Shown here: positions 3,002 to 61,746 of the stretch, in pieces | How positions within the stretch are numbered: the stretch's first letter is position 1 | How the letters are laid out: every line of letters starts with the position of its first letter | Source: Cristatella mucedo | Lineage: Eukaryota > Bryozoa > Phylactolaemata > Cristatellidae | NCBI GenBank assembly: GCA_009760855.2 | Contig: WPIO01000034.1 | Location: forward strand, 1,813,001 to 1,877,000 | Length of the DNA: 64,000 nt | Direction of reading: 5' to 3' | The notes under the pieces: generated by a model | Told to the model about the DNA's origin: nothing | Seen by the model: the letters and a program-made list of their open reading frames with translations, nothing else | The model's database searches: none | Position numbers and translations under genes: made by a program

Positions 3002-14353
<11,352 letters not shown>

Positions 14354-14724
14354 CCTGCTGCTGCTGCTGGCTGAGCGGCTGTTCTTCAAGTCATCTGGGC
14401 TTTCAACAGACCGTCACTGGCCTTCCGCGCTCATCAACTCTTGTTTGAGATCACCAGCAAGAAGGGTTTAAGAAGCAAGAAGGCCCGTAAAGGCAGCCGG
14501 ACAGGATTCCCCTAACCGGTAGCTAGAGCCTACCGATGGCATCATGGGACAGGCTGGTTGGGTGGGTGGGGAGGAATTCCAGTTTTCTCCCCCCCCCCCC
14601 CCCATCCAGGCTCCTGTTGCATCCGGTATAAGGGACACGCCCCATAGTATTAGAGTTATCCTAAGGGCGATGGTTTCAGGATTGCGTTTACAGTCACTGA
14701 CATTAAATATTGACTAAATACAAT

Positions 14725-31379: not shown

Positions 31380-32375
31380 AGTAATAATAATAATAATGTA
31401 CTTGATAAAGCGCCTCCAGAGAACTCAATCTCTTTCTAGGCGCTTTACATTCGCTGCAAAGGGAAATGCAATTAAATGGTAAGTAAAATCATGCTTGAAA
31501 AACAAACAAGATGAATAACATGGTTAGGAGTGACATGCACAGGGTCAGCATGCAAATGTGGTTAGTGGTAGCATGCACAGTGTCAGCACGCATAAGCACG
31601 TGAAGGACGAATCACAGGGACCCACTAAATGCTGTCCTAAATAGGTGTGTTTTTAAGATCCTTTTAATTGTGGTCAGGTCAGGGGATGTTCTGACGCAGG
31701 TCGGGAGGGAGTTCCAGGCTTTGGGAGCATATGAACTAAATGCACGGTCTCCAAAGGATTTGAGGTTTGTACGAGGTATTTGTAGACTGTTGGATTCCGA
31801 AAAGCGGGTGGTACGATGCTTGGCGTGATGGAGGAGTGTGTCGGAGAGATAGGCTGGAGCCATAGAATGAAGGGACCTAAAAGTGAGCGACAAAACCTTG
31901 AAGTCAATCCGTTGCTTGGCTGGTAGCCAGTGCAGGTCGGCGAGAAGTGGAGTAATGTGGCAACTGTGACGCTCACGACAGACAAGTCTAGCTGCCGAGT
32001 TTTGCACCAGCTGCAATCGCCTGATCGCACATGCTGGTAGTCCAGTAAGCAGTGAGTTGCAGAAGTCGAGACGAGATGTCACGAATGCATGGACCAACTT
32101 AGATGTGGTATCCTTATCTAAACAAGCCCGAATTTTAGCAATGTTATGAAGCTGAAAATAGGCAGATTTGACCGTGGAGCTGATATGGTCGTCTAACGAG
32201 AGGTCGCTTTGGAATATGACACCTAGATTTCGAGCTGATTCGACAGGAGATATGCTGGCAGAGCCAATTTTGAGAGACAGCCTTTCCAATTTCCGAATCA
32301 CACTGGGTTTGCCCATAACTAGTAAGTTAGTTTTGTCATCGTTTAGTTTTAGTTTGTCATTGTTTAGTTTTTAAT
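31380..32375 (-). mobile_element. LINE-A, best copy: RT C-terminus plus 3' UTR
   Basis: A 234-codon intact frame on the minus strand (32316-31612) contains ARNLGVIFQSDLSLDDHISS, HAFVTSRLDFCNSLLTGLP, LQLVQNSAARLVCRERH, LLADLHWLPAKQRIDFKVL and PKAWNSLPTCVRTSPDLTT. These are the thumb and C-terminal signatures of L2/Rex1/CR1-type non-LTR retrotransposons. The 3' UTR ends in a hairpin and (TTA)n at 31384-31396. The 5' end is truncated, so endonuclease and most of the RT are absent. Confidence 0.92.
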
Positions 32376-33186: not shown

Positions 33187-33632
33187 ATGCGGCTCGCAAC
33201 GCCGCAGCGTTTCGGCCATGGCACGGGATGCGGCAGCTCCTGCTGTGGCGGCTCTGCCACAGCCGCCGCCGACGCAGCGGCGCCCGAGGCGGCAGCGGCG
33301 GCGTCGACGGCCGAGCTCGGCGTGCGGCTGCTGCTGCTCGCCGCGGCGCTGCTGAGCGAGCGCTGGCCGGCATTCGAGCGCCGCATACAGCCCGAGGAGC
33401 TGTGGCTGTACAGGAACCCGCGCACGGCCAGCTACATGTCTGGCACCGAGCTGTCGCTGCTCGTGTTCGTCGGCGTGCCGGCACTGCTCGCTACCTACCA
33501 CTGGCGCACGCGGAGTCGGCTCGAGGCGGCGCAGTGCTTCTGGAGCTACTCGCTGGCGGTCGGCCTCTGCGGAGCCATCACCAACGTGACCAAGGTGCTC
33601 GTGGGCCGCCCGAGGCCTGACTTTTTCTACCG
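33187..33632 (+). CDS. PLPP4/5: PLPP4/5-like exon 1
   Basis: Encodes the Ala-rich N-terminus, first membrane segments and the first catalytic motif, ending inside the Arg codon of DFFYR at a CG|GTGGGT donor (33633). The exon is GC-rich compared with its flanks. Confidence 0.88.
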
Positions 33633-36600
33633 GTGGGTGGCCGCCGCTGCTGTTCGGTCTCGTTCGCGGGTTGCTACAGCCCTGTCTCTCGTCGATTCTC
33701 GCTAATGCAGGGAAGAATTAACTAGCATATCGGGCTTAGTACTTGAGTTAATTGCATTTCTTTTAATTTATAAATAGTCCACAGGTCCAGTTAATATCTT
33801 GAGAAGACAAGGTGTGCATGCTCGACAAAATGGGTGGAACGGATTTGCAGTATGATGCCGTCTACGTTGTGTTTGCTGTTTGCCTGTTAATACTTTGTGC
33901 ACAAATGTTTCATCGTGTCTTAAGGTGTCTTTTAGCATGGCCATAGCACGCGGCCAGCTCTAGTGTGTCTTGCTCGTATGGCGGTCCGAGTTGCCATTGC
34001 AGACATCATTCAGAGCAGGCATCACAGTGTCCTTAAGAGAGAGACTGGTCTGTGAGCTGGGCCCTGCAGTGCGATGCAACTTGGGTATGGCTAGTTTGCA
34101 AATCCCAAAAGTTTGACCTTGTGTCTCCTTTGCTAAAAGAGCTAGGATGGCTGCCGGTTGATCAAAGTATATAGAGCGTTGTCTTATGCTGATCCACAAG
34201 GCTTGACACGGCTTGGCTCCTCTATACCTAGCTCTACTGCCTGGTCAATTTCAGCCTCCTCGTGCACTCCGGTCCTGTATGGACAATAAATGAGCTGTTC
34301 TGTTCCTCTGCTTAAAGACCGTTGTCGACAGAAACTTTAGCTCTGCAGGTCCTAGACTGTGGAACTCGCTTCCAAGATTCTTATGCAACGACAACTACTC
34401 TGCTGCTGTCGACTATTGCACATCTTTTCCAGCTGCTCCGAGCTGCTACTTCCATGCCACTCACTACCTCAACTGGTCTCCCGACTCTGCTATGTATGCT
34501 TCCCACTTTCTCTTTGTTGGGTGTGATGTGATGTAATGTATCTCCGTCTGTAACTCCACAAAGTCATAAAGACCATGTGGATGTTAGGAGAGTTTTGTAT
34601 AGCTCACTCACAGCCTAAGCAGCTTTCGGTTCGCATTCGGTAGCCAACGGACTACGTCTCACGTGAGTAGCATGGAAGTAGCAGCTCAGGACTGCTGAAA
34701 AGGATGAGCCATAGTCGGCAGTAGGAGAGTAGTTGTCGTTTCGTTAGAAATTGATGAAGTCTTTATGCTACCGAATGCATACCGAAAGCCGCTTAGGGTG
34801 TTGGTGCACTATACAAAACTCTCCTGCTTAACACCCACATAGTCTGTGTGACTTTGTGGAGTTACCGACAGAGATACAATCTTGAAAGTGACCGCAAAAT
34901 ACTGGTCGTGCTGCCAGCTCTACCCGTACAAGCTACAGCAAGCAGTGCACCAGCTTTTGCTTAGCAGGCCAGTCAAGGCTCAGGCTGTATAGCTCAGAGT
35001 GGTAATGTTGCCTGGAAATACTCTGCAGTAGGCTAATCAATTAGTACGATCCAGTAACCATCCGGTAGAGCACCTCTTTCAATGACTCCCGGACTACTGG
35101 GGTGATATTAGAGGCTGATGCATGTTACTAAAAAAATATGGTGCCGGGATATAGTCATAGTGGAGCAGCCGGCACTCTCGTAGTAGCTGTCAGTATCACA
35201 GTCACCCGGAAAGCACTCTTGAACACGACTCTCCGTGACAGTATTCAAAGTGAAACTAAAAACACACCTATTTAGGACAGCATTTAGTGGGTCCCTGTGA
35301 TTCGTCCTTGATGTGCTTATGCGTGCTGACACTGTGCATGCTGCCACTAACCACATTTGCATGCTGACCCTGTGCATGTCACCCCTAACCATGTTATTCA
35401 TTTTGTTTGTTTTTCAAGCATGATTTTACTTACCATTCAATTGCATTTCCCTTTGCAGCAAATGTAAAGCGCCTATAGAGAGATTAAGTTCTCTGAGGGT
35501 GCTTTATCAAGTGAATTATTATTATTATTATTATTATAAAGTGCAGGGACCGCACCAGATCAGTAATTTATGCTGAACTCATGCTGAAAAGCTGCAGCAA
35601 GCTGCAGCCCAAAGCAAACCCTGTCCTCAAAGGTCCCCTTCTAAGAAACCTCTGCTTTCGGTAAGCTTTCTAAAACTATTTACCATATCCTGGCTAGTGC
35701 CTACACTTCATTCGCCAGTGTGTGCTAGCCAGCCTTTCCCCTCAAATTATGTGTTTAGGTACCATTCGAAATACAAATATGTTACAACTGGGATCGGAAG
35801 TTCTGGCGACTTCCACATGAAAGAAAAATCGGTTATGCCTACCACGTCTAACCCTGGTGTAAACTGAAAGCAACAAATCTACAAATAGGCAATTTACTGA
35901 TCTCTGCATCATATGCGACTTGTGTCCCAGCTTGTCGAATCTTGGTAGATCGCGATATATGCTTTAAGTTTGTTGAGTTGCATACTTGTGACTTTCATAC
36001 AGCTTCATTTCCAGGGTTGGTTGGTACCTTGTAAATGAAATAACTCAAATAATATTTCACATATTATATAATATTTCACAGTGAGATTTGAAATGGGAGT
36101 TCAGCTCTACTTTTTTGACTCTCTGTCAGTCTGTAGATGAAGTCTTTAATATTTTTGATTTCGGTATGATACATTTGGTTCTATATGTTCACGATTATGG
36201 AAAATAAAGCTCCACTACGTTTGATGACGTATGCATTAAAATTTATCCAACCGAAATCTGACTGTCAACCTGTTGAAGCTGAACCGCTTGGCGATCACGG
36301 CCATTGTCAAATCAGTGCACGAGGCTGCAGCCATCCAGTTCTCGTGAGCGAGGCAGTTGCTTAGAGTCGTGCCGACTTGCATACACTGCCAGCTGCCTGT
36401 CACTCAGAAAGTCATGAAATATGCTTATGCATGCCTGCTGAATGGACTGATGCCATGCTCACAGCTCCACCACGAACATGAGCAGCACCACGCCTCAGAC
36501 TGGGATGCAGGCCTGCATGCAGGAGACGAGTCGTTTATTTGCTGGAGCTAAATCCCCTGCACAATTCTGATACTGCTGGCGTTTCTGGTGGCCGGAAGAT

Positions 36601-39600: not shown

Positions 39601-41241
39601 TGAGGAGGAGTTGTGGGCCCTGGCTCTGTTAGTTGTGTTATTGCTGACCGACAGATTTGTAATCTTGCAGCAGGCTTCTTGGCAGGAAGCACACAGATTC
39701 ACTGTGAGCTAATGTCCTTTGAAAATTGATTACTCTTAAAGCATGCCTTTTTGTGTCTGCTACGCTGCACGTTAAGCATAGATATATTTCCTGGTGATGC
39801 GGAAAAGAGCCCCTGCTGAGCTAGACCCAGCATTGGCTTGAATTTGGCAACGAAACACGCACCAGGTAACGTAAGATCTGTACGTATGACTGGGTAGCTG
39901 AGTGAGCAATAATAGCCCAGCTCGTGTTGTGCAGCTGCATGCGACCACGCAGCGGCCACCTTTAAAGAAGGTGCTGCCTGAGCTACTGATGCACATTTGC
40001 AGTGGGCTTTTTCTTGGTCAGAAAAGCTGCAGTGGCAGCAGCAGCTGCAGCTACTTAAACTTCTCTTTGACCAGCCCCATCATGCCCTGAGCAATAGCAT
40101 CAGGAGCAACAGCTATGTACTCGAGGCCGAGCCAGGCGGCCTACAGATCGAATCCTTTCTGCCACACTAAGCATCGCTTCTGATCTGTGATCGGTCGGCA
40201 TTGCAACAACTGCGCTCTGCTGTGGCGACCCGTAATCACTAACTGGTGGATGACTCGGTGCCTGGCAACCGGCATCATTTTGTGTAGGCTTCCTGGGGTG
40301 AGGGGCTACTTGTATCCTTCGTCCAAGTCAGGCATGCTGCTTGCCTGCAGGTGCACTACTCTTTTATTTATGCCATTTGTGGAGCTTTTTTTTATTCTCA
40401 CTTCCCAGATGCTTGTCTGTATTACGTTATTTATTTCGAATTATTTATTATACATTATGTATCATGTCATCATGTTACATTCTTTTCATGAGCAAATGCC
40501 ATTGCAATTATTTGACACATTATGTTGCCGTGTTTTTTTAATGTTGTTTTATATCTGCTCGTGACAGCTGCTTTCCGGATGGTAATGCGACTGCCGACAT
40601 GCACTGCACTGGCGATGCAGCCGACATCGTCGAGGGCAGGAAGAGTTTCCCCAGCGGTCACGCGGCCTGGAGCTTTGCTGCGTAGGTGCTCGCGCACCCT
40701 GCATCAGCTGGCTGCAATGGCCTTGAACTTTCAGCCACCGAGTGGAAGTGGAGGTGGCAAAAGTTACGCCATGCCGCGCCTCCTTTGCCGCCGCCGCCCC
40801 GTGCAGTTGCTTGCTCTCTGGCTTTGTGTTTATTTATTTACTTATTGCTTTACCCTTAGGCTCGGCTTTGCAGCCTGGTACATAAGCGGCAAGCTGCACA
40901 CGTTCGGCACCAGCGGAGCTGGCTCCGGTTGGCGGCTTGTCTGCTCGCTGACACCTCTGCTCGGCGCAGCGGCCATTGCACTTTCGAGGACCTGCGACTA
41001 CCATCATCACTGGCAGGACGTCGCGACCGGTTCGGCGCTCGGGCTGCTGACGTCATACGTCTGCTACCGGCGCTACTATCCGGCGCTGGACCACCATCAC
41101 TGCGATCGGCCGCTGGTCATCATCGGCGCGTCGTCCGCCCGCGGCCGAAGCCACAACGACTGCTGCCACTGCCACGCAGCAGCTGCTGCAGAGGGCACCT
41201 GTGGCTGGTGCCACGAGCCGACGATAGTCAAGGTCGTTTAG
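33187..41241 (+). CDS. PLPP4/5: PLPP4/5-type phospholipid phosphatase (PAP2 family), whole gene
   Basis: Integral membrane phosphatase of the type 2 phosphatidic acid phosphatase family, which dephosphorylates phosphatidate and related lipid phosphates. Exons 33187-33632, 40568-40681 and 40860-41241 join in phase to 942 nt (313 aa), close to vertebrate PLPP4/5 plus an extended tail. Near the N-terminus it has [14 protein letters not shown], typical of PLPP4/5. Catalytic motifs are complete: K136xxxxxxR143P144 ([11 protein letters not shown]), PSGH at 177-180 and S229R230..H236..D240 ([12 protein letters not shown]). [20 protein letters not shown] matches the family loop. The tail (about 260-313) is His/Cys-rich. 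The start is the first ATG in frame with the conserved region; Ala-rich residues precede the homology. Intron 1 (about 6.9 kb) is full of LINE-B copies. Confidence 0.9.
34200..34542 (+). mobile_element. LINE-B C-terminus, sense copy
   Basis: Contains the reading [20 protein letters not shown], the decayed C-terminal signature also seen at 37100 and 42870 in reverse, and ends with TGATGTGATGTAATGTA, the (TTACA)-like tail. In intron 1 of the phosphatase gene. Confidence 0.7.
34543..34885. repeat. Inverted pair of LINE-B 3' ends (large imperfect palindrome)
   Basis: 34543-34720 reads as the LINE-B 3' UTR in reverse (GTAACTCCACAAAGTCATAA.. GAGAGTTTTGTATAG.. CGCATTCGGTAGCC). 34755-34885 reads the same sequence forward (GCTACCGAATGCATACC.. 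CTATACAAAACTCTC.. GACTTTGTGGAGTTAC). Arms are imperfect but align over more than 100 bp, so a transcript of intron 1 could fold here. Confidence 0.8.
35220..35545 (+). mobile_element. LINE-A 3' end
   Basis: AAACACACCTATTTAGGACA, CATGCTGCCACTAACCACAT, then the hairpin AAGCGCCTATAGAGAGATTA and a (TTA)n tail at 35516-35537. In phosphatase intron 1. Confidence 0.85.
35550..36815. other. Phosphatase intron 1, nothing recognised
   Basis: No exon or repeat family recognised. Confidence 0.35.
36822..37290 (-). mobile_element. LINE-B 3' end
   Basis: Begins at its tail TAATGTAATGTAATGTA, then the 3' UTR (CTCCACAAAGTCATAAAGAC, CATTCGGTAGCCAACAGACT). On the minus strand it reads into a C-terminal coding remnant ([13 protein letters not shown]-type at about 37100-37160). 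Confidence 0.75.
37465..37560. repeat. Short tandem repeat of ATCAGCTC-type units
   Basis: Irregular tandem copies of GATCAGCTCATCA and GATCAGCTCACCA. TGATCA is palindromic, so the block is partly self-complementary. Confidence 0.85.
38140..38950 (-). mobile_element. LINE-B 3' portion
   Basis: 3' UTR (AGAAAGCCACGGAGACTAGG, CTTTCGGTACACATTCGGTA), then on the minus strand a decayed RT C-terminus running to about 38950. It is the longest LINE-B copy in intron 1 of the phosphatase gene. Confidence 0.7.
38955..40565. other. Phosphatase intron 1, nothing recognised
   Basis: No extra exon was found up to the exon 2 acceptor. It is AT-rich near 40380-40560. Confidence 0.4.
40568..40681 (+). CDS. 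PLPP4/5: PLPP4/5-like exon 2
   Basis: After a CTCGTGACAG acceptor it encodes [20 protein letters not shown] and the second catalytic motif ([14 protein letters not shown]), ending before GTAGGT at 40682. It has 114 nt. The exon is too short to be obvious from open frames alone but matches the family residue by residue. Confidence 0.9.
40860..41241 (+). CDS. PLPP4/5: PLPP4/5-like exon 3
   Basis: Follows a 178-nt intron with a CTTTACCCTTAG acceptor. Encodes [36 protein letters not shown] and [12 protein letters not shown], with the third catalytic motif. It then runs into an unusual His/Cys-rich tail containing DCCHCH and CGWCH, before a TAG at 41239-41241. Confidence 0.9.
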
Positions 41242-41597: not shown

Positions 41598-41983
41598 TTA
41601 GTCGTAGGTGAGCGAAATGTCGAGGCGCTCGAGCATGGCAGCATCGACTTCCGCCCACCTCTTCCGGATGTCCTGCTGCGTGGCGCTCGCGGCCCTGTTG
41701 GACCGGTCGAGAGCCAGCGCGAAGAGCAGCTCGAGCTGCTGGCGCGACAGCCGCGCCCGCTTCCGGTCGCGTATAAACATGGCCGAGTTGTGGTCGACCG
41801 TGCAGTTGAGGCGAGTCTCGTCGAGAGGCACGCCGAGGAAGCGGACGAGTGCCTCTAGCTCGGCGCGCAGGTCCCTCTTGAGGCCGTTGTAGCTGACCAC
41901 GTGCACAGGCTTCTGGTACCTGTTTATCCAGTACTCGTGGAACTCAATCCACACGATCAGGCGTGTCAGCCACAGATCCCACT
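41598..41983 (-). CDS. WSCD: WSCD-like last exon
   Basis: Acceptor ACTGCTGCAG before 41983. Starts WDLWLTRLIVWIEFHEYW and ends MLERLDISLTYD, stop at 41600-41598. LEALVRFLGVPLDETRLNCT matches the family segment MVAFLNVSVSEERLLCV. It converges with the phosphatase gene, with 356 nt between the two stops. Confidence 0.8.
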
Positions 41984-44560
41984 CTGCAGCAGTAAGAGCC
42001 CCGTATGCGATTGCAGCTCTGCTCAGGTCACCACTTGCTGCTCGCATCGGCTGAAGCCCTCGGCAGCTCAAGCCAATGAGCAGCTCCACGTTTTTGGGTA
42101 CTGCTGAGTACGTGTTTCGCACGTGCCGAACAGGAAGTAGCCTATGCAGTCATTGCCTAAGCATCGTCTGACGGCAAAGCTTGAGAGCTAAAGGTGGACC
42201 GATTGGGTCGTGCGCAAACTGGATGGGAATTTCTGGTCCAGCGAGGTGCATTAAACATCTATGCTATTCAAATCTAGCGCAGTTGTTTGCACATGGCCGT
42301 GCCCTCCTGTTCTTGTTCTGCTTTACCCGAAGTGCATGCTCGCTCGATCACTCCCGATACCTAGTCGCATGACTAGCAGATCAGCTGCAGCCAATAGCTG
42401 TACGTTAGGCAATGCCGGTTCGTGCTTCGAGTTCAGGCTATCAGACTTGCATGCATGCGTGGGCAAGGTAACTGGCGTTGGCAACTACATTCGTGATGTG
42501 AGCCCCAGAGGCAATGGCCGAACTGAGATATGTAGTAATGCTAGTAATGCATCGACGTGTTGGTATCTTCACCTGCGAGTAGACAAAGCCAATCCTGTAT
42601 TGCCAGCTGCAAAGGGAAATGATTGCTTCTATGCGTTTTCACCCAGCGCCTACAAAAATGAGGCTGTTGAATAAGCTAACGTGCACTGTTTTTTTACAAT
42701 CGAGGAGATAAGTAGCATTAAAACAGCAGAGCAGGAGGCTGTGCCACAGCCGAAGCAGTGGAAGAGAACGTAAAGTTGCATAAGATGGCAAGGAAGTGAG
42801 GTTCACCGGACACGTAGAGCAAAGTTTTACATTTTCATCGGTTTCGAAGTGAAAGAATGGAACAGCTAAGTTATCGTCCGGAGGGGGCGCAAGGGCACGA
42901 ATGTGGCTCGGCAATGGAGGGCCTTGATGGAAATACCCGACCCATAATTTTCATATATTATATATTTATATTTATTATATATATATATATTTATTATATA
43001 TTTATATTATATTTCATAATCCAGTATATTTTAATGAGTTCTGCTCTTCTGAAGCACCTTCTTATCGTGACTGAGTTCTCTCGTTTGGCACGTAACACAA
43101 GACGTAAACGGAAGAAAGTGCAGCTGATTAGGGATAGCAGCTTTAGGAGGCACCATTTCAGCAGACGGGACACACAAAGCCGATTGCATCTCATGAGCGT
43201 CAGGCCTGTTTCAAATGCTATAGAGTAGGTTTTAAAAGAAAAATGCTTTGGCAGCGATTCTGTAATCGGGAGGCTCGCCACGAGAAAGCCGCGATCTGCG
43301 TTGGAGACAAGCACTGACGCTATGAAGGCGGCGAACTACCAAGCTTCTGCTTCTGTAGCTCCCCATTTACCGTACCTTATCGAAAAAAATCTTGTCTTCT
43401 AAAACCAGACCCTATAGCTCTTTTGGCGCCATCTTAAAAATTCGCTCATCGCAAGTTGGATACCCGGAATTTTTTTTATAAATGCATGACCCGGAAGCTT
43501 CTTTAGAGCCCATCTAAAAAAAGACAAGCTTTGGGATTTGAGGCAACTGGAGAGCCCCCCCCCCCCCGAAAGTCTATACTCACTCCAAGTTGTCGAGCCA
43601 TCGGGATTAAAGAAAAATGACGGGTCTGCATATCCGGTCTTGTTTCCACCGTAGAGACGATTGAACTCAGCGAATAAGCCGTTGAGTGGGTGCCGAATTA
43701 TAATGATAGCTCTCTCAAATGGATTCGTTCCATCATGCCTATAGAGCGACACATCGTAGCGATGGGTCTTCACAGCAACAACCGTGCTATCGGACCTTGA
43801 GCTGAACTCGGCAATTCGGTCGTTGCCAATGCTGTTGTACGTGTCGCCGGTCTTTATACCTGAGGGCGAAATCGAAAGTGAAGGTGAGTGTTATCCTGGA
43901 GCATTCTCGAAGCTTCAGGATAACACTCCTCCAAATGCACATTTTCAGTCTTACCGTTGCGACGTCCCCTAACTTGACCACATTTAAAAAGAAATAAGAA
44001 AAATACCTATTTATGACAGCATTTAGTGGGTCCCTGTGATTTGTCCTTTTAATGTCCTTAAGCGTGGTGACACTGTTGTATGCTACCACTAACCACACTT
44101 GCATGCTGACCCTGTGCATGTCACCACTAACCATGTTATTAATGTTGTTTATCACACATGATACCACACACAGTTCGATCGTGTCTCCTTTGTCCTCTTT
44201 TCGTGTCCTCTTTTCGATCGTGTCTCTTTCCGCTAATGTAAAGCGCCTAGAAAGAGATTGAGTTCTCTGGGGTTGCTTTATCAAGTGTATTATTACTATT
44301 ATTATTAACAACTAGAACCTGGCATAGGTCCTTTGGTCATTGCTGTCCCGATATAAAAGAATTAGCAGTAACTCACCTAAGAAAATCCGGTGCAGAATAA
44401 AATTAACCAACTGCGTTTCGCAAGTGTGAGGTCTAGCACCAACTTCAGGATTGACAATTCCAGCCAGCAAATCTTTAAACTCCAGCGCTGGTACGTTCAG
44501 GAAGAATGTCCGGCCATTTTGCAAAGATCCAACAATAACTGCAGCTCTGTCCGTGCTCAT
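41598..44560 (-). CDS. WSCD: WSCD-like sulfotransferase domain protein, whole gene
   Basis: Exons 44560-44377, 43859-43584 and 41983-41598 on the minus strand join in phase to 846 nt (281 aa). It matches the C-terminal sulfotransferase domain of WSC domain-containing proteins (WSCD1 is a Golgi sialate O-sulfotransferase), in order: IKTGDTYN, STVVAVKTHRYD, ERAIIIIRHPLNGLFAEFNR, WLTRLIVWIEFHEYWINRYQ, VHVVSYNGLKRDLRAELEAL. No WSC domain or membrane anchor is included, so a 5' part may lie upstream. An alternative acceptor at 44539 would join a further exon near 44597-44645 (GLTAFDVVIHGS). Both PAPS-binding motifs are altered: PGSGNTW is PHTCETQ, and the 3'-phosphate loop Ser is Gly (RHPLNGL for RNPYKSL). 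Confidence 0.75.
42590..42910 (-). mobile_element. LINE-B fragment next to a SINE-B tail, in WSCD-like intron
   Basis: On the minus strand 42910-42690 reads VRALAPPPDDNLAVPFFHFE-type LINE-B C-terminus. At 42650-42680 a SINE-B tail on the plus strand (AATGAGGCTGTTGAATAAGC) abuts it. Confidence 0.55.
42950..43015. repeat. AT-rich repeat
   Basis: TATATTTATATTTATTATATATATATATA units within the WSCD-like intron. Confidence 0.85.
43584..43859 (-). CDS. WSCD: WSCD-like exon: KTH and 3'-PSB region
   Basis: Acceptor CCTCAG before 43859, donor A|GTGAGT after 43584. Encodes IKTGDTYNSIGNDRIAEFSS, VVAVKTHRYD, IIIIRHPLNGLFAEFNRLYG and ends TGYADPSFFFNPDGSTTW. This is the strongest family match of the gene. 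Confidence 0.8.
43885..43927. repeat. Inverted repeat in WSCD-like intron
   Basis: GAGTGTTATCCTGGAGC and AGCTTCAGGATAACACTC form a near-perfect stem of about 16 bp around ATTCTCGA, just upstream of the exon acceptor at 43860 and next to the LINE-A copy. Confidence 0.8.
43965..44310 (+). mobile_element. LINE-A 3' end in WSCD-like intron
   Basis: CCCCTAACTTGACCACATTT, 3' UTR CATGCTACCACTAACCACAC? type sequence in a diverged form, hairpin AAGCGCCTAGAAAGAGATTG with GGTTGCTTTATC, then TTATTACTATTATTATTA. It is opposite in orientation to the host gene. Confidence 0.85.
44377..44560 (-). CDS. WSCD: WSCD-like exon with degenerate 5'-PSB loop
   Basis: Opens at ATG 44560 (a TAA lies two codons upstream) or, if internal, at 44538 after GAGCTGCAG. 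The final residues RPHTCETQLVNFILHRIFLG sit where the family has FPGSGNTWVRHLIE, just before the TG-type turn. Donor G|GTGAGT at 44376. The start choice is uncertain. Confidence 0.55.
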
Positions 44561-49269: not shown

Positions 49270-49815
49270 GCGGCCAGGCTGATGCGAGCCGGGCACCTTC
49301 GCCAGGGGGTGGGGGTGAGCTGGAGCTGACAAATGACCGGGCCTCAGTCCCGTTCCTGTTACGCGGCGTCGTCGATCGAATTCTCCGCTGACGACGAGAC
49401 CTCGCCGCGCGCCCATCGCAGCAGTAGCCGCCAGCGGAGACGCAGGATCGCCGCCGCGGCGGCTGCTGAGCGCTCACTGCGGCTCGATGACAACCCAACG
49501 GCGTCGGCATCGCCGATCCGGCGCAGGGAGGCGGCGTTGCGCGAAACGTACGCGGCGTCGCGAACCTCACCGGCTGCGGCGCTGCTAAAGGCAGCGGCCG
49601 CCGTCCACAGGAACGCGGCAGCGCTCGAGAGACGTCTCATCCGGCGGCGCCTGCCGGGAGCTGCTCGGACGAACGGTCGGCGGCTGCGCGTCGCTGCGGC
49701 GCTGCTAAAGGCAGCGGCCGCCGTCCACAGGAACGCGGCAGCGCTCGAGAGACGTCTCATCCGGCGGCGCCTGCCGGGAGCTGCTCGGACGAACGGTCGG
49801 CAGCTGCGCGTCGCT

Positions 49816-49867
<52 letters not shown>

Positions 49868-50159: not shown

Positions 50160-51779
50160 ATGCGCCATCCGCGGTGCTCTCGGCGGTGCCGCTCGTCGGC
50201 GGTGGGCGTGCCGGCGCTGGCGCTGACGTTCCTGCTCTGCGTCTGGGCGCTCGCGTCCACGTGGCTGCTGCCGCCTGACGCGAGCGACGGCGACGCCGCG
50301 TCGTCGCGCGTCGGATCGGCTGGCTTCATCACGCCGCAGCACGACGGCGACGTTGACAGTTCGGCGGCGGGAACTGGCGGCGCCTCGCCTGGCCGCTCGG
50401 ACAGGACTTCCGTCGAGCACTTTTGGGTCGCCGTCGATGGGTCGCCCAATCGAGATTCGAAGAAGAAGACCTCGTCCAAGGACGCCGGACAGCGCGCACC
50501 GCCGCCGCCGCCGCCGCCGCCGACCGCAGCGACGAAGTCAGCTAGCGGCGGCAAAGCGCTCGGCGCCACGCGGCTTCGTTCCGTTGAGCGCCCGTCGGCG
50601 ACGGCCGCAGCCTACCGTCCCAGCCAGCGGGAGGCGGTCAGCGCCGCCGTCGCCACCGGAACGCCTCGCGGTGGCGACGCCAACGAGGACGCCACGGCGG
50701 CAGCGGCGCCGGTGGATGCGACCGCCGCCGCGGTGGCGACGGAGCATTACTTCGACGACCTGGTCGCGATAGAGCCGGACGCGCGCTGCCGGTCGCATCG
50801 CAACGCGTCCGCCGACGCTGCCGGCCCGCCGCCCGGCGGCAATCTCACGCTCGTCGTGCTGCTTCGCGACGTCGACGACTCGCTGCCAGTTCAGACGGTG
50901 CTGAGCGCCGTCGCGTACACGCCGGCGCACCTGCTCAAGGAGATCCTCTTCGCCTACTCGACGTCGTCGAGCGTGTCGCGCGACTACCTGGACTCGTTGT
51001 GGCGCTCGCTGGCGCGCCACAGGCGCAGCCACGCTCTGCGCGCGTTCGGCGGCCGCACCCACTACGACGCCGCGATGGCGGCCGCCTCGGCGGCCGCCTG
51101 CCGGTACGTGGCCGTCGCGCACGACAGCGTGCTCTTCGCGCGGCGCTGGGCCGAGCCGCTGCTCGAAGCCCTCGTCGCCAATCCGGAGAGCGTCGCGCTG
51201 CCGCACGTCGACGCCGCTCTGCCCAATCTCGTGTACACGCAGCACTACTCTCGCCAGCTGTACGGCGAACGCGAGTCGCTGCGCTGGGCCCTCGGCTGGA
51301 GCCTCGCCTACAAGCTGCGCCCGTCGCCCTACCTGCGCGGCGGCGACGCTGGCGGCCGCGGCGGCGACGCTGGCGGCCGCGGCGGCGACGAGTGGCTGAA
51401 CAGCGCGGCCACGATTGGCGACGCTCTGCTGGCGCCGCGAAGCCTGCTCGTCGCCGCGGCGGGCGCCGCTGGCGTCGGCTCGTTCGTGGAGCTCGGCTTC
51501 CTTGCGTGGATGTGCGGCGGCGGCGTGCGCCTCGTCGGCTGCTCGCGGGTGCTCAAGGCCAACAAGTACTTCGTCATCCCGCCGCCGGTCGACGCCGACG
51601 AGCGTCGCTCCCTCGCGCGGCTCTACTTTGGCGCCGAGCGCCGCAGGCTGCACGCCGCCGCCAGCTCGCCGCCCGACGACGGGACGGCGCGCGCCGCGTC
51701 GCCCCGCGACGACGATGACGACGGCGGCAAGTCGCGCGCCTTCCTCGAAGGACTGAGAAGCAGAGGCTGCAAGAGAAGC
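50160..51779 (+). CDS. GALNT: GALNT-like exon 1: anchor, stem and catalytic-like domain
   Basis: Starts at ATG 50160 (MRHPRCSRR), which gives a short cytosolic tail and the membrane anchor. The exon ends ..GCKRS at AGC|GTAAGC (donor 51780). Very GC-rich. A 24-bp in-frame repeat near 51335-51390 encodes repeated GGDAGGRG units inserted in the catalytic-like domain. One large exon for anchor, stem and catalytic region is unusual, as vertebrate GALNTs split it into many exons. Confidence 0.82.
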
Positions 51780-52817
51780 GTAAGCCGCGCCGCGGCTGCT
51801 TCGCGCACATGCGCCGCGCGGCCGCAGAGCTCGCGCTCTTTCCGGCGCCGCCGCGGGTCTGTGCCCAGAAGGGGGGGGGACGGACGGGCGGGCAGGGTCG
51901 TTGCGATCGCCCGCCCCTCCCCCAGGCGATCCGAGGGAAGAACTTGCTCGCAGCGCCATCTTTCGGCCCGAGCTTGGCTTCTCGAGCGTCCGGTGCACTG
52001 TTCCCTGACCGGGCGCGAGGCAGCGCTCGTTCGCGCCTCGTCCGACGCCGGGCAAGGCGGCCGCCCAACGATTGGTTGCGAGTGCACCTCAAGCACCTCA
52101 AGCTCGACGGAGCTTCGCGCCGCCGCTGCAGCCCGAGAAGTCGATGCGTCTGAAGCGCCTTAGCTCCGATGGCGTCTTTCGCAACCTTTAGTAGCGCTCG
52201 ACGAAGCGCGCGCGCGCGCGACGCGGGTTGTTCGTCAGCACACGGCGGGGCATTCCTACCCTGCGCAGCTCCGACGGGCGGCTGCCGCGAAGCGGCCGCC
52301 CGTCGCTCTCTCGCGCTCCGACGGCTGATCGCTGCCTGTGTGCGTCCGATAGTGGCTCGGTCTAACCTCAGACGTCGCGCTTATTGGACGTGTCAGCTGC
52401 CGAGACTGTCCTCGCTAGTGCGAGCGGCGGCGTTGCCCTCCCCTCGATCGGGACTAGACGCCTGCATATCGTATCTACACGCCTGAGCCGTGTCCGCGGC
52501 AGGCAGTCCTACGTCCAAAGGCTAATTGGGGCAAGACAGGTGGCGCATTAAAACATCGCCGGTATACTTCCGTTTGGACCGCACGCCCAGAAGCGGTGGA
52601 TATTGTGAGGACGGCACGAATCGTCGTCCTTCTCTGCAGGAATGCTCCCAATTCGAGCGTGGCCTCTCACCAGACAGCTTTTACCTGTCAGCTGAGCTCC
52701 CGCTAGGTCATAAATAAAAGCCATCATAAATTCAGAAGCGCCCGCCAGGTCTCATTGCCAGGCAATAAATCACTGGCTCTAGAGAAAAAATAAACTCCAC
52801 AGATTCTATTAAACCCG

Positions 52818-52859
<42 letters not shown>

Positions 52860-55800
52860 GCTCAATCTGCTCCGAGCGCGTAATGCGCCTTCAGCCGCTG
52901 CCGTTTTCCGTGCGTAATAAAATGGCACATGTGGCAGCGAAACAGTAGCTGCGCCCCTCACCTCGGGCCCTCCGGGGGGGGGGGGCCGGGGGCGCGGTTG
53001 CATATTATTACAAGCCTTATTCTTAGAATTGGCTCCGCCATACGTTCTCCGCGACCTGTTCCGTTGAGTCTGCACGTCCTGATCCACGGCGACCTTTCGC
53101 GAGATGGCAGCCTAGAGTCTACGGTCTGGTCGACTTTCTCTAACCTACGTAAATTACTAGAAATTCAAAAGAGTTTACATCGACGTACCAGAACAAGTTA
53201 TTTCATGCATCAGCAGTTATTTGGCCTGTTTTGCTCTAGCGCTTTTTTGCACGTCTTCTAGATAAGATTCTCATATCCGGTTCAAAGCTTTGCAGCTGTG
53301 CTGCTTGTCAGTATCGAACTTCGCATCTGCCACGCTATACACCTCTCTCCGATTTGCACTAACCATCTATTAAGCAGCAAAGCAACTTACAGATATTTTC
53401 ACTCACTATTTTTCCGTTTATTATTTTTCTCGAGCTTTACAAACAGATATGTTCACCATTCAATGGCATTTCCCTTTGCAGCAAATGCAAAGCGCCTAGA
53501 CAGAGATTGAGTTCTCTGAGGGCGCTTTAGCAAGTGCATTATTATTATTATTATTGTATGCCGACTGGTAGCCCTTACCTCACGTGACTCTTCACTCATG
53601 GCTTCTTTCGCTTAGCGTGCCTTTGAGCAAATCTTTCGGAGACCTCGTTTTCACTTATTACACGAGCCTGGCCTCGAAAGTGTGACGTCAAGAAATCCCT
53701 TGACTGGATAGGGTTTCAAGCATGGCCAACAGCTCACCAGTTTGTCTCCACGTTTGCTTGACGCCTGCGAATCGGCCGATGTGTGTGCCTAGGCGGGCTG
53801 TAATTTACCTTGCCACGGTCGACAATCAGTCTGCGTTCTTTCATTCGCGTATATTTGAAGTGTCTAGGAAGAGATCAATTTTTTTTGGGCGCTGCATTAA
53901 CGCAAAAATATTATTCAAGATAGTGCAGCATAGATGAAGATAGCTAACCTCCGTATAGAGTATTAGTCGTCATCGCCGCCCTTGGTTTGGCCCAGGCGTA
54001 TGAAGGTGGTCTTCGACAAACGTGGGCGTGGGCTCGAGTCCCTCAGTGATTCGACACGTAGTCGGAACTGGATGAACGGTATATACGTAGTAGGGGCTAA
54101 ACCTCGTCGATACGACCTCGACGCTACCCTGTTGATGATCGCGTGTAACTATTTAGCCAGAGCAGACGCTACCAAGGTCTTCTGCTGAGCCAACTGGAGC
54201 TGTGATTTTAGTTCTTGCTCTGTTCAAATAGTATAACAAGCATGTTTTTATTGTATTCACAGTATTTACAAAACTTGCTCGCCTCTTTTTCCGATATCCC
54301 AACTAGCATTGAATGCTGTATCCATTCAGTTGCTCAAATATGCCCTGCCGAGTAAAGCCTACAGTACAGTTCTTTCGTGTGTTTCTGCTCGCGAACGTGC
54401 GCGCGTGTGGGTGCATGCGAGCGTGTGAATCCGTGAGCACATCCGTGGCTCTATAAACTTAATTTGGCCCTATTTGCGAAAGCTACCGCTAAGCATTTTG
54501 AAAGAGTGTTGGTATACAGAATAGCCTTGCTGCACGTGAACTTCGCAACAGTCCAGGAAGTTTCTACGACTTCAGCAGGACGATCGTGGCAGCGTCGAAA
54601 GGTATAGTGCCAGCAAAACAAAAGTGATGAACAATTTGCGTTTTTCGGAGAGGAATTCACATCGACAAAATATACTTCCTAGATAATTGACGGTATCATA
54701 AGAATTAACATCACACCAAAACTGCCGTGCCTACAGAGCCGGACGAGGCTGGCTTATTGACAGCTGCTGGCCGATAATGTGTGCTTGCTTTGTTGTAGGA
54801 AAGTTCAAAGCACACCTGTTAAGGAGCTGCCCATGCATACCTAAGAATATGCAGGGTTTCACAAAATTAGGGGCCTGTTTTGGAACTGGAATTAGCCTCT
54901 CGCAATGCATCTGCTTTAGGCTTGTTAAGGATAGTGTGTGCTTTAGCTATTATAGAAAAAGCATGCTCGCTGTTAGCCAGTAACTGTAACAGATCACCTC
55001 TGGAATCATCGAGAGTTGATTTGAGAATATTTTATGTCAGCATCTAAATTCTGTGCACATACTTTGGCAAACTTGTTTAAGGTCCTCTCCAATTTTTAAA
55101 ATCGTCAAAGTAATGTGTCCATGATCGTCAGAGAGTATACTACGCATCAAAGGCAGTAAAAGAGCTTGTCCAATACAAATTGGATAGTGCAATATAATAA
55201 TAGATAATACACTCGTATTGCACCAGCGGAGAAATTATTCTCATTTAGGTACTTTTCATAAGCTGTAAAGAAAGCGTGATAGTATGGTAAGTGGTAAAAT
55301 GCACAGTATCAGAGCGTGTAAGCACACTGAGTGCAATTTACAAAGGGCCCAGAAAAATGCTGTACGGAACAGGTGCGTTTTATGTTTTTTTTTAATGTCG
55401 TCAAATCAGGAGTGTCTTGACGTCAGTCGGGAGTGAGTACTAATCTGTTGGAGCATACGAACTAAAAGCACAAGGATTTACGGTTAGTTCGAGGCATAAC
55501 TAGACGATTTCAGTAAGTAGAGTGCGTGGCACAGTGTCTAGCTTGACTGGGATTAGTTTGAATAGGTTGACTGGAGCAAGATACTGGAGGGAACTAAAAG
55601 GTAGTGGCAAAAACCTTTTAAGTCGCCAGGCTGTCTTGTGGGGAGCCGAGTAGTGAGTTACAAAAGTCGAGAAGCGATGTCGCCTATGCATGAATCAATT
55701 TGGTTGTAGAGTACCTGTGTAAGCAGCTTCGAATGTTCGCAATGTAGGTCAACAACTCGCACGCTCTCACGCACTATACAGTTATACTGTACACCAGCGA

Positions 55801-56798
55801 ACAGCATCAGATTCCTCGTTTTAGCATATAAAAAGAATAATAGTTCAGGAAGTACCAACCTTAAGCGATAGCCCGAAGTACTTTTTGCTTACGGATGAAG
55901 GAAAATGTAGTAAAAATTAGCTTATCAAAAGCCTCATCTATGCAGCAGCAGCAGAAAAGCCTTAGCTGCTATCGCAGGGCTTGCCTTTGGCAATACAGTT
56001 TGCCTGCTGTGAGACTCAAAATAACCACCTGGATTGGAAAGATCGAGACTTTGATACATGTACGTTTATGCTTATGTGCATACGTGTACAGTTTGATTGA
56101 CCCACTCGTCCTTTTGTCTGCCCGTCCGGCGAACTGCAGATTGCCTCGGCCTGCTCATTCCTAACGTAATCGAAGAGCTCATCCCTAACGTAATCGCAGC
56201 CCTTTTAACGAACTCAACGGCTGACTGCGTGCTAGCACTACCAATCAGGTTATATGTGACAGGGTCTATGGCTAATCGCCTTAGGTGACCCACCCGAATG
56301 TGACACGGCCTCTTTCCTGTCAGTTCGGCTTGCCTGCCCTCTTCGTTGCAGTTCGACTGGTATGCCAGGGAAATCGCAGCTCTGCCGTTCCTTGACCTGA
56401 CGCCTCGCGACTTGGATCTCGTGGCCCGCGTCGGTCAGCTGATGAACAGACAAAGCTTGTCGTGCTACGACTTCGCTGCCGACGGCTCGGCCGTCGAGCT
56501 GGTTGGCTGCAGCCAGCAGTCGACCTCACTGTACGCCGAAAGTGATGGCTCGCTACACCTCCAGTTGGGCTGTTTGGGTCGAAGCGAGAGCTGGAAACTC
56601 AAGGTGCAGCCGTGCAACGCCACCGCGCAGGGCGCCATCTACAAGCTTGCTCGATCCCGGCTGATCACGGATGGCTACACATGCCTCGGTCGCAGGGCTG
56701 GCTCAGGCAAGGAGGACAGGCGGTTTGTCGCCGTTCCCTTCAACTGTCCGACGCCGGATGGGCCACCGCCGACCCACATGCAGTGGTCGCTAGTGTGA
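50160..56798 (+). CDS. GALNT: Divergent polypeptide GalNAc-transferase-like protein with lectin domain, whole gene
   Basis: GALNTs are Golgi type II membrane enzymes that start mucin-type O-glycans by adding GalNAc to Ser/Thr. Exons 50160-51779 (540 codons) and 56352-56798 join in phase 0 (2067 nt, 688 aa). N-terminal signal anchor at about 15-36 (PALALTFLLCVWALASTWLL), a Pro-rich stem near 115, catalytic-type fold from about 227 (NLTLVVLLRDVDDS; HLLKEILFAYSTSS; RRWAEPLLEALVAN; LAWMCGGGVRLVGCSRVL), then a ricin-type lectin domain. The DxH metal motif (FLDAHCECTVGW) is replaced by AVAHDSVLFARRW, so HDS (residues 321-323) stands where DxH should be. WGGEN is also lost, and the late His (HVFR) is replaced (KANKYF). 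It therefore looks like a pseudoenzyme or a changed activity. Confidence 0.82.
52820..52857. repeat. (AT)n microsatellite
   Basis: Pure TATA run in the GALNT-like intron. Confidence 0.95.
53450..53560 (+). mobile_element. LINE-A 3' tail
   Basis: TCCCTTTGCAGCAAATGCAA, then AGCGCCTAGACAGAGATTGA with GTTCTCTGAGGGCGCTTTAG, then (TTA)n. It gives the clearest view of the terminal hairpin (AAAGCGCC with GGGCGCTTT). Confidence 0.85.
53965..54050 (+). mobile_element. SINE-A head fragment
   Basis: CCTTGGTTTGGCCCAGGCGT (A box region) and GGGCGTGGGCTCGAGTCCCT (B box). The 3' part is missing. Confidence 0.5.
54190..55180. other. GALNT-like intron, nothing recognised
   Basis: No exon or repeat family recognised. 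Confidence 0.35.
55185..55740 (-). mobile_element. LINE-A 3' portion, degenerate
   Basis: Reads in reverse as the 3' UTR (GCACAGTATCAGAGCGTGTA, AAATGCTGTACGGAACAGGT) and a decayed C-terminus (TCGTCAAATCAGGAGTGTCT, GACGTCAGTCGGGAGTGAGT). More diverged than the copies at 28110 and 31380. Confidence 0.7.
56352..56798 (+). CDS. GALNT: GALNT-like exon 2: lectin domain
   Basis: Acceptor CCCTCTTCGTTGCAG ends at 56351. FDWYAREIAALPFLDL continues the GALNT end motif (KPFSWYLENIYP) from CKRS of exon 1. Lectin repeats follow: LMNRQSLSCYDFAADGSAVE, ESWKLKVQPCNAT, DGYTCLGRRAG, and a final QxW-type end HMQWSLV, then TGA. About 150 residues with paired cysteines, as in GALNT lectin domains. Confidence 0.85.
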   Translation, partial: FDWYAREIAALPFLDLTPRDLDLVARVGQLMNRQSLSCYDFAADGSAVELVGCSQQSTSLYAESDGSLHLQLGCLGRSESWKLKVQPCNATAQGAIYKLARSRLITDGYTCLGRRAGSGKEDRRFVAVPFNCPTPDGPPPTHMQWSLV

Positions 56799-59055: not shown

Positions 59056-61746
59056 CAGGGGTGTCCAACCTTTTTGCGTTGGGGGGGCCACATTAAAAAA
59101 ATTTAAAAGGTCCGGGGGCCACATGTAAATTGGCGTAGTTGACCGCATCAGAAAATAAGATCGTAATTTAGTATGACTATTACTATTATACTTAATAAAT
59201 AAACCGTAATACAATAGTATTTTTAATCATAATTATAATTAAAAAAATAAATAATAAAAATTTAATCATGTGTCCTGGAAAATAGTTTGATAGATATAAT
59301 GGCCAATCTTTTACTTTTGGATTTTTATTTTTATAACATGAAGACAGAAACTTATAAAACTTACACAATTACACGACAAGGACTCACATTATATTAATGT
59401 CTTCGGATTAATTATATGCCTCAGGTATTCAATGTGTTCTGCACTGCAGGCATCAATCAGATATTTAGCATTGTTTCTGTTTGCATAAGAAGTCGACATC
59501 TGTTGCAACACTGGATGTGGCAATTCTAAGGATTCCTGATAAATGATCATCTGTGAGAACGGATCGAGTCTTTGTTTTCACATTTTTCAGTCTGGAGAAA
59601 AGTGGTTCACAGTAATATGTGCTGCCAAAAAGTGCAATATACATGCGAGCATGTTTGGCTGGGTTAGGAAAAGACTCTGATGAAACATAATGCTTGTAAA
59701 AGGTAACAAGGTCATGCTGAGCATAAGCAGTTTTTAAATTGCTGTCATTATGAATGTTGATTAGTTCGAGTTGAAATTCATCAGGTGCATCAGAGAGATC
59801 GATATTAAATGGGTTACTAATCATGTTCATGTCATCCGCATGTTGTTGGAAATCCTGAAACCTCTCTCTGAATTCATCAACAAGTTTACTAACAAGAGTG
59901 GAGTACTTCATATGAGCCAGCGTTTTAGGCGATCTTGTTGCTAGTGTTGTGAAATGTAACAGTTTCTTCTGATCTAAGTGTTTCCGGAAAAGACAACACA
60001 CTCATACATTATATGGACCAGTTGATCCGTACCTTGGAGTTTGACATTAAGATCTGCAAGATGTTTAGTCATGTCCACCAAAAAAGCCAAGTCATTCAAC
60101 CACTGCTTGTCATCGAGGAGGCCAACATCTTTTCCCTTTTCTGTCATAAATGTTTTTATTTCGTCCCGAAGTGACCAAAACCTGGCTAACGTGTTTGGCC
60201 TAGTTAGCCAACGGACTTGGCAGAAATAAATAACATCACAATTGTCTGATCCCAACTCTTCAAGGAAAGCCTAAAATTGTTTGTGGTTTAGCACACGAGA
60301 CCTTATCGCATTGACTGTTGAAACTCCATTGTCCATTACATGTTGCATGCTCAAGACTTTTGCACATAGCTGTTCTCTGCGGATGATGCAGTGATGACTG
60401 ATAATTTTGTGAGGTACTAATTTTACCATTAAAGATACAAATCCATTGTGTCTACCTGTCATTGAAGGGGCTCCGTCTGTGGTTAAACCAATCAATTTCG
60501 TTTCAGGAAGATTAAATTTTGTGAGGACCCTCTTGACCTGATCCAAAATATCCCTCCCCATTGTAGTGCCTTTCATTGAACATATATATCCAACAGTTTG
60601 TCGATAATGACAAACTTTCCTGTTACTCCGCGTACAAACACCGACAGTTGAGCCGTATCGCTATTGTCCGTGCTCTGGTCGAGCGAAAGAGAATACAATT
60701 CGCATTCAGCAAGTCTTTTAGTGAGAATTTCTTCTATATTGGATGCGAGCTCGTCAAATCTTCTCGCAATCGTTTGATAAGAAAGACTGATTTTCTCTAC
60801 TTCTGACTTTTTTTCTGGACAGACCACACCAGTAAACAGCCTGAGGCATTCCTCAACAAATTCACCATCGGAAAATGCTTTCTCCGGCTTAGCTATAGCT
60901 TCAGTTAATAAAAAACTTACTTTGGTTGAAGCCTCAGATTTGTTGCTGACTGGTGTAAACAATGACTGCTGTCCGATGACGCTCTGTTTCAACGAGTTCA
61001 CGCGATCAATTCGAAGTTGACCAGTCAGGCTGTTGTACCAGTCGCCATGCTTTGTTGAAAAATGTCGCTTAACATTGTACTCCTTTGCAACGGCAATTGT
61101 TTCTTGGCATATCAGGCACATTATCCTACCGAAGCGTTCTATTACAAAATAGTCTACATTCCAAGATGCTTTGAAAAGTCTTCCTTCTGCGTCAATTTTT
61201 CGTTTTTTGCTAGTATTCAAATTCGCCGCCATTTTTCTCTGTGAAATAAAAAACAGATCAGTTACGAATTGATTAATTTATATTTTATCACAGCAATATC
61301 TTAGTATTAGCAAGTAAGTTGAGCAATACGCGTTTTTTGAAAAACCTACCTGACTGATTCCAGTTCGTGCAACAGCAGCTGAGAAACGGCTCTTTTTTTC
61401 TATCCACAGTGTGAAACAGTTAATTCCGATTTCGGAAGCGTTATACATGTGATCGTAATGGCGCCGCTGTAGCACAAATATATTACCCTTTCACGCCAAA
61501 ATGTTCACATGAAGGCTAGAAAAAAATAAATCGATTACTTTACCTTCACGCGAAAATAGCCATTTGGACACCTTCACTCTTCACGCAAGCGTGAAGTACA
61601 TCGCAGCGCCTTATATCGCCGTTTGTAATGATTAAAAATTAACGAAAAACATGGAGTGACGAATATTTTTGGGATAACGTTGTGGGCCGCATAGAAGACC
61701 TCGGCGGCCGGGTTGTGGCCCGCGGGCCACGTGTTGGACACCCCTG
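59056..61746 (-). mobile_element. hAT DNA transposon, near full length but disabled
   Basis: Terminal inverted repeats CAGGGGTGTCCAAC (59056-59069) and GTTGGACACCCCTG (61733-61746) match perfectly over 14 bp. The 8-bp target duplication CAATATGG is intact on both sides (59048-59055 and 61747-61754), a hAT hallmark. The transposase is on the minus strand. Element size 2691 bp. The perfect duplication points to a rather recent insertion although the transposase carries lesions. Confidence 0.95.
59465..61232 (-). pseudogene. hAT transposase (BED finger, ZBED/GTF2IRD2-like)
   Basis: Begins MAANLNTSKKRKIDAEGRLF at 61232. A BED-type zinc finger (CLICQETIAVAKEYNVKRHF, then STKH) is at about residues 38-65. 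The hAT core follows: LSLDQSTDNSDTAQLSVFVR, MKGTTMGRDILDQVKRV, LIGLTTDGAPSMTGRHNGFV, YFCQVRWLTRPNTLARFWSL. The C-terminal dimerisation part ends CEPLFSRLKNVKTKTRSVLT. Three breaks are seen: a frameshift near 60575, an in-frame TAG near 60272 (NHKQF*AFLEEL), and a frameshift with possible small loss near 60000. It belongs to the hAT group that gave rise to vertebrate GTF2IRD2 and ZBED5 type genes. As it stands it cannot make a full transposase. Confidence 0.9.

Follow-up and report, generated by a model that had tools for sequence, protein, structure and literature searches.

The DNA analysed here is a stretch of 64,000 nucleotides from the bryozoan Cristatella mucedo (GCA_009760855.2, contig WPIO01000034.1, positions 1,813,001 to 1,877,000 of the forward strand), which is referred to below as the window. 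It contains a gene related to the polypeptide GalNAc-transferases (GALNTs), the enzymes by which mucin-type sugar chains are initiated; in this gene the metal-binding and catalytic motifs have been replaced. The gene has two exons on the + strand (50160-51779 and 56352-56798, stop included) and comprises 688 codons after splicing, with no stop and no frameshift. The splice donor reads AAGAGAAGC followed by GTAAGC after 51779, and the acceptor reads TTCGTTGCAG followed by TTCGAC, with exon 2 starting from 56352; the start, the splice and the frame agree with those of an initial annotation of this DNA. The codon-position G+C contents (0.72/0.60/0.89 in exon 1 and 0.60/0.51/0.76 in exon 2) show the bias typical of coding DNA in both exons. 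That the two exons belong together is also supported by the match of exon 2 to the second exon of the paralogue C277b. The annotation had also used the length of the open frame as an argument against a decaying pseudogene. This argument proved weak, since Markov models trained on exon 1 itself give comparably long open runs. When 500 sequences, each of 2 kb, were generated from either model and read in six frames, their longest open run reached 487 codons (order 1) or 666 codons (order 2, the maximum possible) at the 95th percentile. Directly upstream of the gene (49573-49821), a 120-bp unit occurs in 2.1 copies with 99% matches, and is followed by a (GCG)17 run. The catalytic-like domain also carries a 21-bp tandem repeat, which is probably a recent expansion because its copies are perfect.

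The search of exon 1 against all PDB chains (phmmer) gave seven matches at E<=0.001, all of which were GALNTs (best GALNT2, 5.1e-5); up to E=1 there were 16 matches, two of them to unrelated proteins (at 0.1 and 0.37). When the core alone (residues 228-540) was used, all 12 matches at E<=0.1 were GALNTs (best GALNT2, 1e-5). The Pfam GT2 model matched exon 1 at E=0.011, which is under the family cut-off. The homology is firmer via the paralogue C144, which the window gene finds at 7.2e-12 and which in turn finds GALNT4 at 8.3e-20; the C653 paralogue alone finds GALNT10 at 7.1e-20. A profile of six genes of the family matched 16 PDB sequences at E<=0.001 (best GALNT4, 4.6e-28), including 15 named GalNAc-transferases and 8uhv, named only ‘Glycosyl transferase’; the strength of this profile comes largely from C144 and C653, which are strong GALNT matches by themselves. 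As judged from these sequence comparisons, the window gene is a descendant of the polypeptide GalNAc-transferases. The scan of viral contigs with the family profile (one pattern) gave 20 pattern matches, none of which was confirmed.

The predicted protein has the layout of the GALNT (GT27) enzymes such as GALNT2, GALNT4 and GALNT10, including the anchor, the stem, the GT-A core with the HLLKEI, W.EPLL and CGG...CSRV landmarks, the core cysteines, the FxWY linker and a probable C-terminal ricin-type lectin exon. The anchor and stem of a type II protein were recognised by hydropathy and composition only, and the N-terminal hydrophobic anchor is clear in all five distinct proteins of the family. 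Three cysteines of the catalytic domain (Cys452, Cys461 and Cys537) align with GALNT cysteines, and Cys210 is invariant within the family. The four presumably form two disulfides; the GALNT counterpart of Cys210 and its disulfide are assumed by us independently of the alignment. Unlike the GALNTs, the window family lacks the DxH motif, the WGGEN loop and the late His, and has extra low-complexity stretches; in the window-type genes, moreover, a single exon encodes the catalytic-like part and FxW[YF] is preceded by a phase-0 intron.

The Mn ion of GALNT2 is coordinated by Asp224, His226 and His359, according to the description of this site in PMC4432651. The corresponding residues of the window protein are His321, Ser323 and Lys466, and all three positions are therefore changed; KANKYF (residues 466-471) stands where the GALNTs have HVFR. 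The alignment with GALNTs bore out the three replacements pointed out in the initial annotation, namely HDS for DxH, VGSFV for WGGEN, and KANKYF without the late His. For all five distinct sequences, compared with four GALNTs apiece, the score was higher when HDS was placed on DxH without a gap than when the register was moved by one residue. With the moved register, the four two-exon genes would retain an Asp but would have Val at the His position. With the three Mn ligands and the WGGEN loop all changed, loss of the standard Mn-dependent reaction is the natural reading, as the annotation had proposed.

At least five further genes of the same kind are present in the genome, including C277b, C44, C144, and two near-identical copies on C653 (Table 1). 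They were found by a Pfam search of the own genome (13 matches) together with protein searches; the total of six is a lower bound, as the genome search scored only the best candidates, without a profile or a C277b query. The DxH, the WGGEN and the late His are absent in all six genes, which lie on four contigs. Among the four two-exon genes, the window gene and C277b have Lys at the late-His position, C44 and C144 have Arg, and none of the four has lost the middle Asp of xD[SD]. At the altered sites the window gene and C277b resemble each other (DSV.F; KA..YF), and both lack the Arg of the RARL/RSRV segment, which we take to be a donor-binding residue. The window gene finds C277b with 37% identity (E=1.5e-42) and C44 at 5.1e-12. 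The annotation had feared that a local mutation or an assembly error might account for the changed motifs; this is unlikely, because the paralogues are without the same motifs and four of the genes share one gene structure.

In this common structure, one exon runs from the start to a conserved cysteine, and is followed by a phase-0 intron with a good donor and by a lectin exon that begins exactly at FxW[YF]. Exon 1 of C277b ends with GCRD at the phase-0 donor GTAAGT (L017:2959), which was preferred to the candidate GTTCGC at L017:3088; the family alignment, the alignment with GALNTs, the Pfam search with second exons, the six-gene profile, the substitution proportions, an earlier tree and the viral scan were made with a longer exon end of C277b, whose tail lies outside the core. 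In the C653 genes, exon 1 reads through FDWY and the split falls inside the lectin part. The two C653 copies differ at 9 of 427 codons and by a two-codon gap, and are a recent duplication; they are connected to the family through C144 (1.0e-13). A truncated and rearranged copy of the 5' half of C277b was also found at C277:1956536-1957165 (- strand; L040/L020). It lies a few kb from C277b in the opposite orientation, as a local inverted duplication (C277:1948001-1958000).

For the phylogenetic trees, the canonical rows were six PDB GALNT chains together with two of the genome's own ordinary GALNTs, one of which is only 45-48% filled. Without C653, the four two-exon genes were split from the eight canonical rows at 100/99, with the warning that long branches meet there; the earlier tree with six canonical rows also gave 100/99. 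With C653 included, the five sequences grouped together at 90/90, a value that was not starred, and the C653 branch was long. These are unrooted trees, and the composition of C277b, and in one run also that of C44, is unusual.

The lectin nature of the second exon is clearest in C144, in which Pfam Ricin_B_lectin matched over the cut-off (E=1.5e-7); the second exons of C44 and C653 gave weak Ricin_B_lectin matches below it. The profile of the four second exons found 20 PDB sequences at E<=0.01, including 18 plant ricin/mistletoe-type lectin chains as well as GALNT9 and GALNT7, aligned from the FxW position onward. Four lectin cysteines are invariant across the four two-exon genes. The window exon 2 found only itself and the second exon of C277b (8.3e-7) below E=0.1 in its own genome, and these two lectin exons matched each other at 4.6e-13 by phmmer (in a database of seven sequences). 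The QxW motif is the mark of ricin-type lectin repeats, and a QxW-like motif was seen by eye in the last repeat only of the window lectin part.

The cores of the window gene and C277b (233 aligned codons) share 47.6% amino-acid identity, which is above all of 100 codon shuffles of C277b (mean 29.4%, maximum 38.4%). The same codon is used for 65% of the 106 identical residues, compared with 55% (standard deviation 6) under shuffled pairing, and the silent sites are therefore close to saturation. Since the proteins remain alike while the silent sites are near-saturated, the comparison points to purifying selection on this pair. The catalytic residues would then have been lost while the protein was conserved, as far as can be judged between paralogues.

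Table 1. Features of the window gene (window positions) and its paralogues (contig positions)
Feature	Position	Strand	Basis or remark
Exon 1 (540 codons), with the N-terminal anchor, the stem and the catalytic-like domain of GALNT type	50160..51779	+	Open frame, codon-position G+C, phmmer
Signal anchor of a type II membrane protein, hydrophobic, at approximately residues 14-34	50199..50261	+	Kyte-Doolittle 19-residue maximum 2.23 at residue 14
Stem of low complexity (residues 40-205), rich in Ala, Ser, Gly, Asp, Pro and Thr	50277..50774	+	Composition; putative Golgi stem role
Cys210, ahead of the core	50787..50789	+	Invariant in family alignment
GT-A (GALNT/GT27-like) core, residues 228-471	50841..51572	+	Homology searches, alignment
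HDS (residues 321-323) replacing metal-binding DxH	51120..51128	+	Alignment, register test
Perfect 21-bp in-frame tandem repeat, 2.6 copies (GGRGGDA units), in a loop of the catalytic-like domain	51336..51390	+	
VGSFV (residues 439-443) replacing the WGGEN catalytic loop	51474..51488	+	Alignment
CGGGVRLVGC with Cys452 and Cys461, conserved GALNT landmark	51513..51542	+	Invariant columns; aligned with GALNT cysteines
Lys466 replacing the third metal ligand (His359 of GALNT2)	51555..51557	+	Alignment with GALNT4 and GALNT10
Cys537, shortly ahead of the splice site, at the GALNT cysteine preceding FxW	51768..51770	+	Alignment
Intron, phase 0, GTAAGC...TTGCAG	51780..56351	+	Position common to the window gene and three paralogues
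Exon 2, with the FDWY linker followed by a putative degenerate ricin-type lectin domain containing six Cys; stop codon 56796-56798	56352..56798	+	
Paralogue C277b (match)	C277:1950421-1951836	+	About 80 kb downstream of the window gene; metal motif DDS, late His = K
Paralogue C44	C44:3456308		Metal motif EDS, late His = R
Paralogue C144	C144:2126909		Metal motif GDD, late His = R
Paralogue pair C653	Two copies 18 kb apart		Metal motif SAG in both, late His = Y

The genome also contains ordinary GALNTs. The DxH exons are kept at six loci (C33, C687, C221, C671, C665 and C199), and C687 additionally carries WGGEN and HVFR; ordinary mucin-type O-glycosylation is therefore likely to be present in the animal. 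C662 has WGGDN and HVFK, and is placed outside the six intact loci because its DxH exon was not seen. The GT2 matches on C55 were rejected as GALNTs, as they were recognised to resemble dolichol-phosphate mannose synthase. The GT2 gene on C3 was also rejected as a family member because it is a bacterial-type gene. Contig C3 (1.5 Mb; L014) carries bacterial-type genes, including this GT2-family glycosyltransferase and an ankyrin-repeat protein, and is perhaps a symbiont genome within the assembly.

We favour the reading, with a probability of about 60%, that the window gene is a member of a small pseudoenzyme family, GALNT-derived (GT27-like) and working without catalysis. The protein would be placed in the Golgi or the endoplasmic reticulum as a folded type II protein, where Mn-dependent GalNAc transfer would not be possible for it. 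It might act as a binding protein, with active GALNTs or mucin-like, O-glycosylated cargo as the most likely targets, and its role might be that of a chaperone, a competitor or a specificity modifier, as reported for GALNT18 and COSMC. GALNT18 keeps most of the canonical motifs, whereas these are gone in the window gene. In the passages dealing with it, GALNT18 is said to enhance GALNT2 and GALNT10, its activity not being proven (PMC9587226); two peptides are reported as glycosylated by GALNT18 in a further source (PMC8472655). The same source describes GALNTL5 (GALNT20) as seemingly non-functional (PMC8472655); unlike GALNTL5, which encodes no lectin domain, the window gene has a lectin-type exon. 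COSMC (C1GALT1C1, GT31) is presented in PMC7185993, in the part concerned, as an inactive glycosyltransferase copy without DxD and xED that acts as scaffold and chaperone; it belongs to another glycosyltransferase family, and its partner is known, whereas that of the window protein is a proposed one.

Several observations weigh against the pseudoenzyme reading. The partner, the ligand and the location of the protein are ones that we infer, and the single-sequence AlphaFold2 model of the window domain had a predicted local distance difference test (pLDDT) score of only 37. The C653 pair and the window gene do not match each other directly in either direction; because the link runs only via C144, the motif loss of the C653 pair may be a separate event, and its kinship with the four two-exon genes is less sure. 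The family also sheds genes, since the copy at C277:1956536-1957165 is broken. Between the window gene and C277b, the uncorrected proportion of synonymous differences (pS) was 0.535 for exon 1 and 0.702 for exon 2, and that of nonsynonymous differences (pN) was 0.461 and 0.472, respectively; these Nei-Gojobori values are ambiguous and yield no usable ratio, because they are near saturation. In the recent C653 pair, seven nonsynonymous and two synonymous changes were counted, and no constraint is visible in these few changes. The window lectin exon alone gave no Pfam match (E up to 5) and neither a lectin nor a GALNT in the PDB, and the C277b lectin exon alone gave no Pfam match. The identity between these two lectin exons (32%) is not above that of shuffles (mean 28%, maximum 42%).

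The gene might instead be a decaying duplicate whose frame has stayed open by chance in GC-rich DNA. The long open runs at exon 1 composition, the perfect repeat expanded within the domain, the broken family copy, and the exon 1 pN close to pS (though both are near saturation) would suit such a duplicate; however, the coding-type bias extends to exon 2, which has ordinary GC, the splice sites are good and the 688 codons are free of stops and frameshifts. Moreover, the core identity with C277b exceeds all the shuffles, and both exons find C277b in the same order. Decay is therefore considered unlikely. Even less can be said for an ordinary active GALNT that looks odd through sequencing error, misalignment or local mutation. 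The DxH motif is short, and moving the register by one residue would put the DS of the window gene on the DS of DSH; but the ungapped register scores higher and a shift would still leave Val for His in the four two-exon genes. In addition, the losses concern three separate motifs and recur in six genes spread over four contigs, and the paralogues already largely refute this explanation, which is hardly credible.

The possibility of a working, metal-independent glycosyltransferase was also considered, in which Lys466 would replace the metal in holding the diphosphate and the shifted Asp of HDS would contact the donor. A metal-independent bacterial GT6 with UDP-GalNAc has reportedly been described. 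The window family resembles the metal-independent GT-A enzymes (GT14 and prokaryotic GT6) in the loss of the DxD-type motif and in the basic residue at the metal position in four genes. According to the sections on these families in PMC7185993, GT14 has basic side chains in the place of the metal, and GT14 and prokaryotic GT6 are active without DxD and need no metal. The kept middle Asp and the altered sites common to the window gene and C277b would also fit such an enzyme. Unlike GT14 and GT6, which keep activity, the window family has lost the WGGEN loop as well; moreover, the RARL/RSRV Arg is absent in the window gene and C277b, and the C653 pair has Tyr at the late-His position. The four basic residues are weak evidence, because the genes that carry them are related and 12.5% of the residues in the window domain are K or R. 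A working enzyme of this kind is thus quite improbable, and we are still more doubtful of the wider proposal of a clade of retaining GalNAc-transferase relatives, in which the Mn site would have been swapped for Lys/Arg and a shifted Asp with metal-free donor binding or transfer. We know of no metal-free animal GALNT of this sort, and none was found among the titles and abstract openings of the searched literature, the full texts of which were mostly not covered. Finally, the protein might serve as an effector of lectin type, in mucus or innate immunity for instance, whose lectin part is active and whose catalytic-like domain is a mere scaffold. The lectin-type second exon of the family and its multigene nature, with neighbouring copies on C277 and C653, are in keeping with this; however, all five distinct proteins have a clear hydrophobic anchor, and the QxW-like motif is confined to the last repeat in the window lectin part. 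Such an effector is regarded as very unlikely.

Other features were also observed in the window and the assembly. Open reading frames (ORFs) similar to the PAP2 superfamily (lipid phosphate phosphatase-like) lie at 33187-33705 (+), below the Pfam cut-off, and at 40522-41241 (+); the two are perhaps exons of one gene. The window further contains a sulfotransferase-domain ORF at 41598-42122 (-; Pfam PF00685, E=4.1e-8) and a Death-domain ORF at 13934-14389 (-; Pfam PF00531, E=1.5e-11). The pieces at 59465-60001 (-) and 60573-61232 (-) are hAT-type transposase-like, with Dimer_Tnp_hAT below the cut-off and a Spin-doc zinc finger over it. A near-identical ORF stretch (AKIRACLDKDTTSKLV...) is found at 31612-32316 (-) in the window, where it has no Pfam match, and in L039 from 8889; it is probably the end of a dispersed retroelement. 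The contig C688 (21 kb; L054, L055) is a mitochondrial genome with repeated segments, in which the same ORF stretches occur three times and which code 5 fits. Its genes were recognised by eye as nad1-nad6-cob-nad4L-nad4-nad5 on one strand, an order that we take, with low confidence, to be lophotrochozoan-like.

The GALNT outliers known to us are single vertebrate genes, and no title or abstract opening in the searched literature names a family such as that of the window gene, within an incomplete coverage that left most full texts outside the search. In at least six genes of this one invertebrate genome, the metal site and the WGGEN loop have disappeared, while a lectin-type exon and the landmarks of the core persist. 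With the gradation from C144 (GALNT4 at 8.3e-20) to the window gene (GALNT2 at 1e-5), the order of these losses becomes open to study. The family would thus be suited to examining how enzymes of O-glycosylation evolve into proteins that read glycans or act as chaperones.

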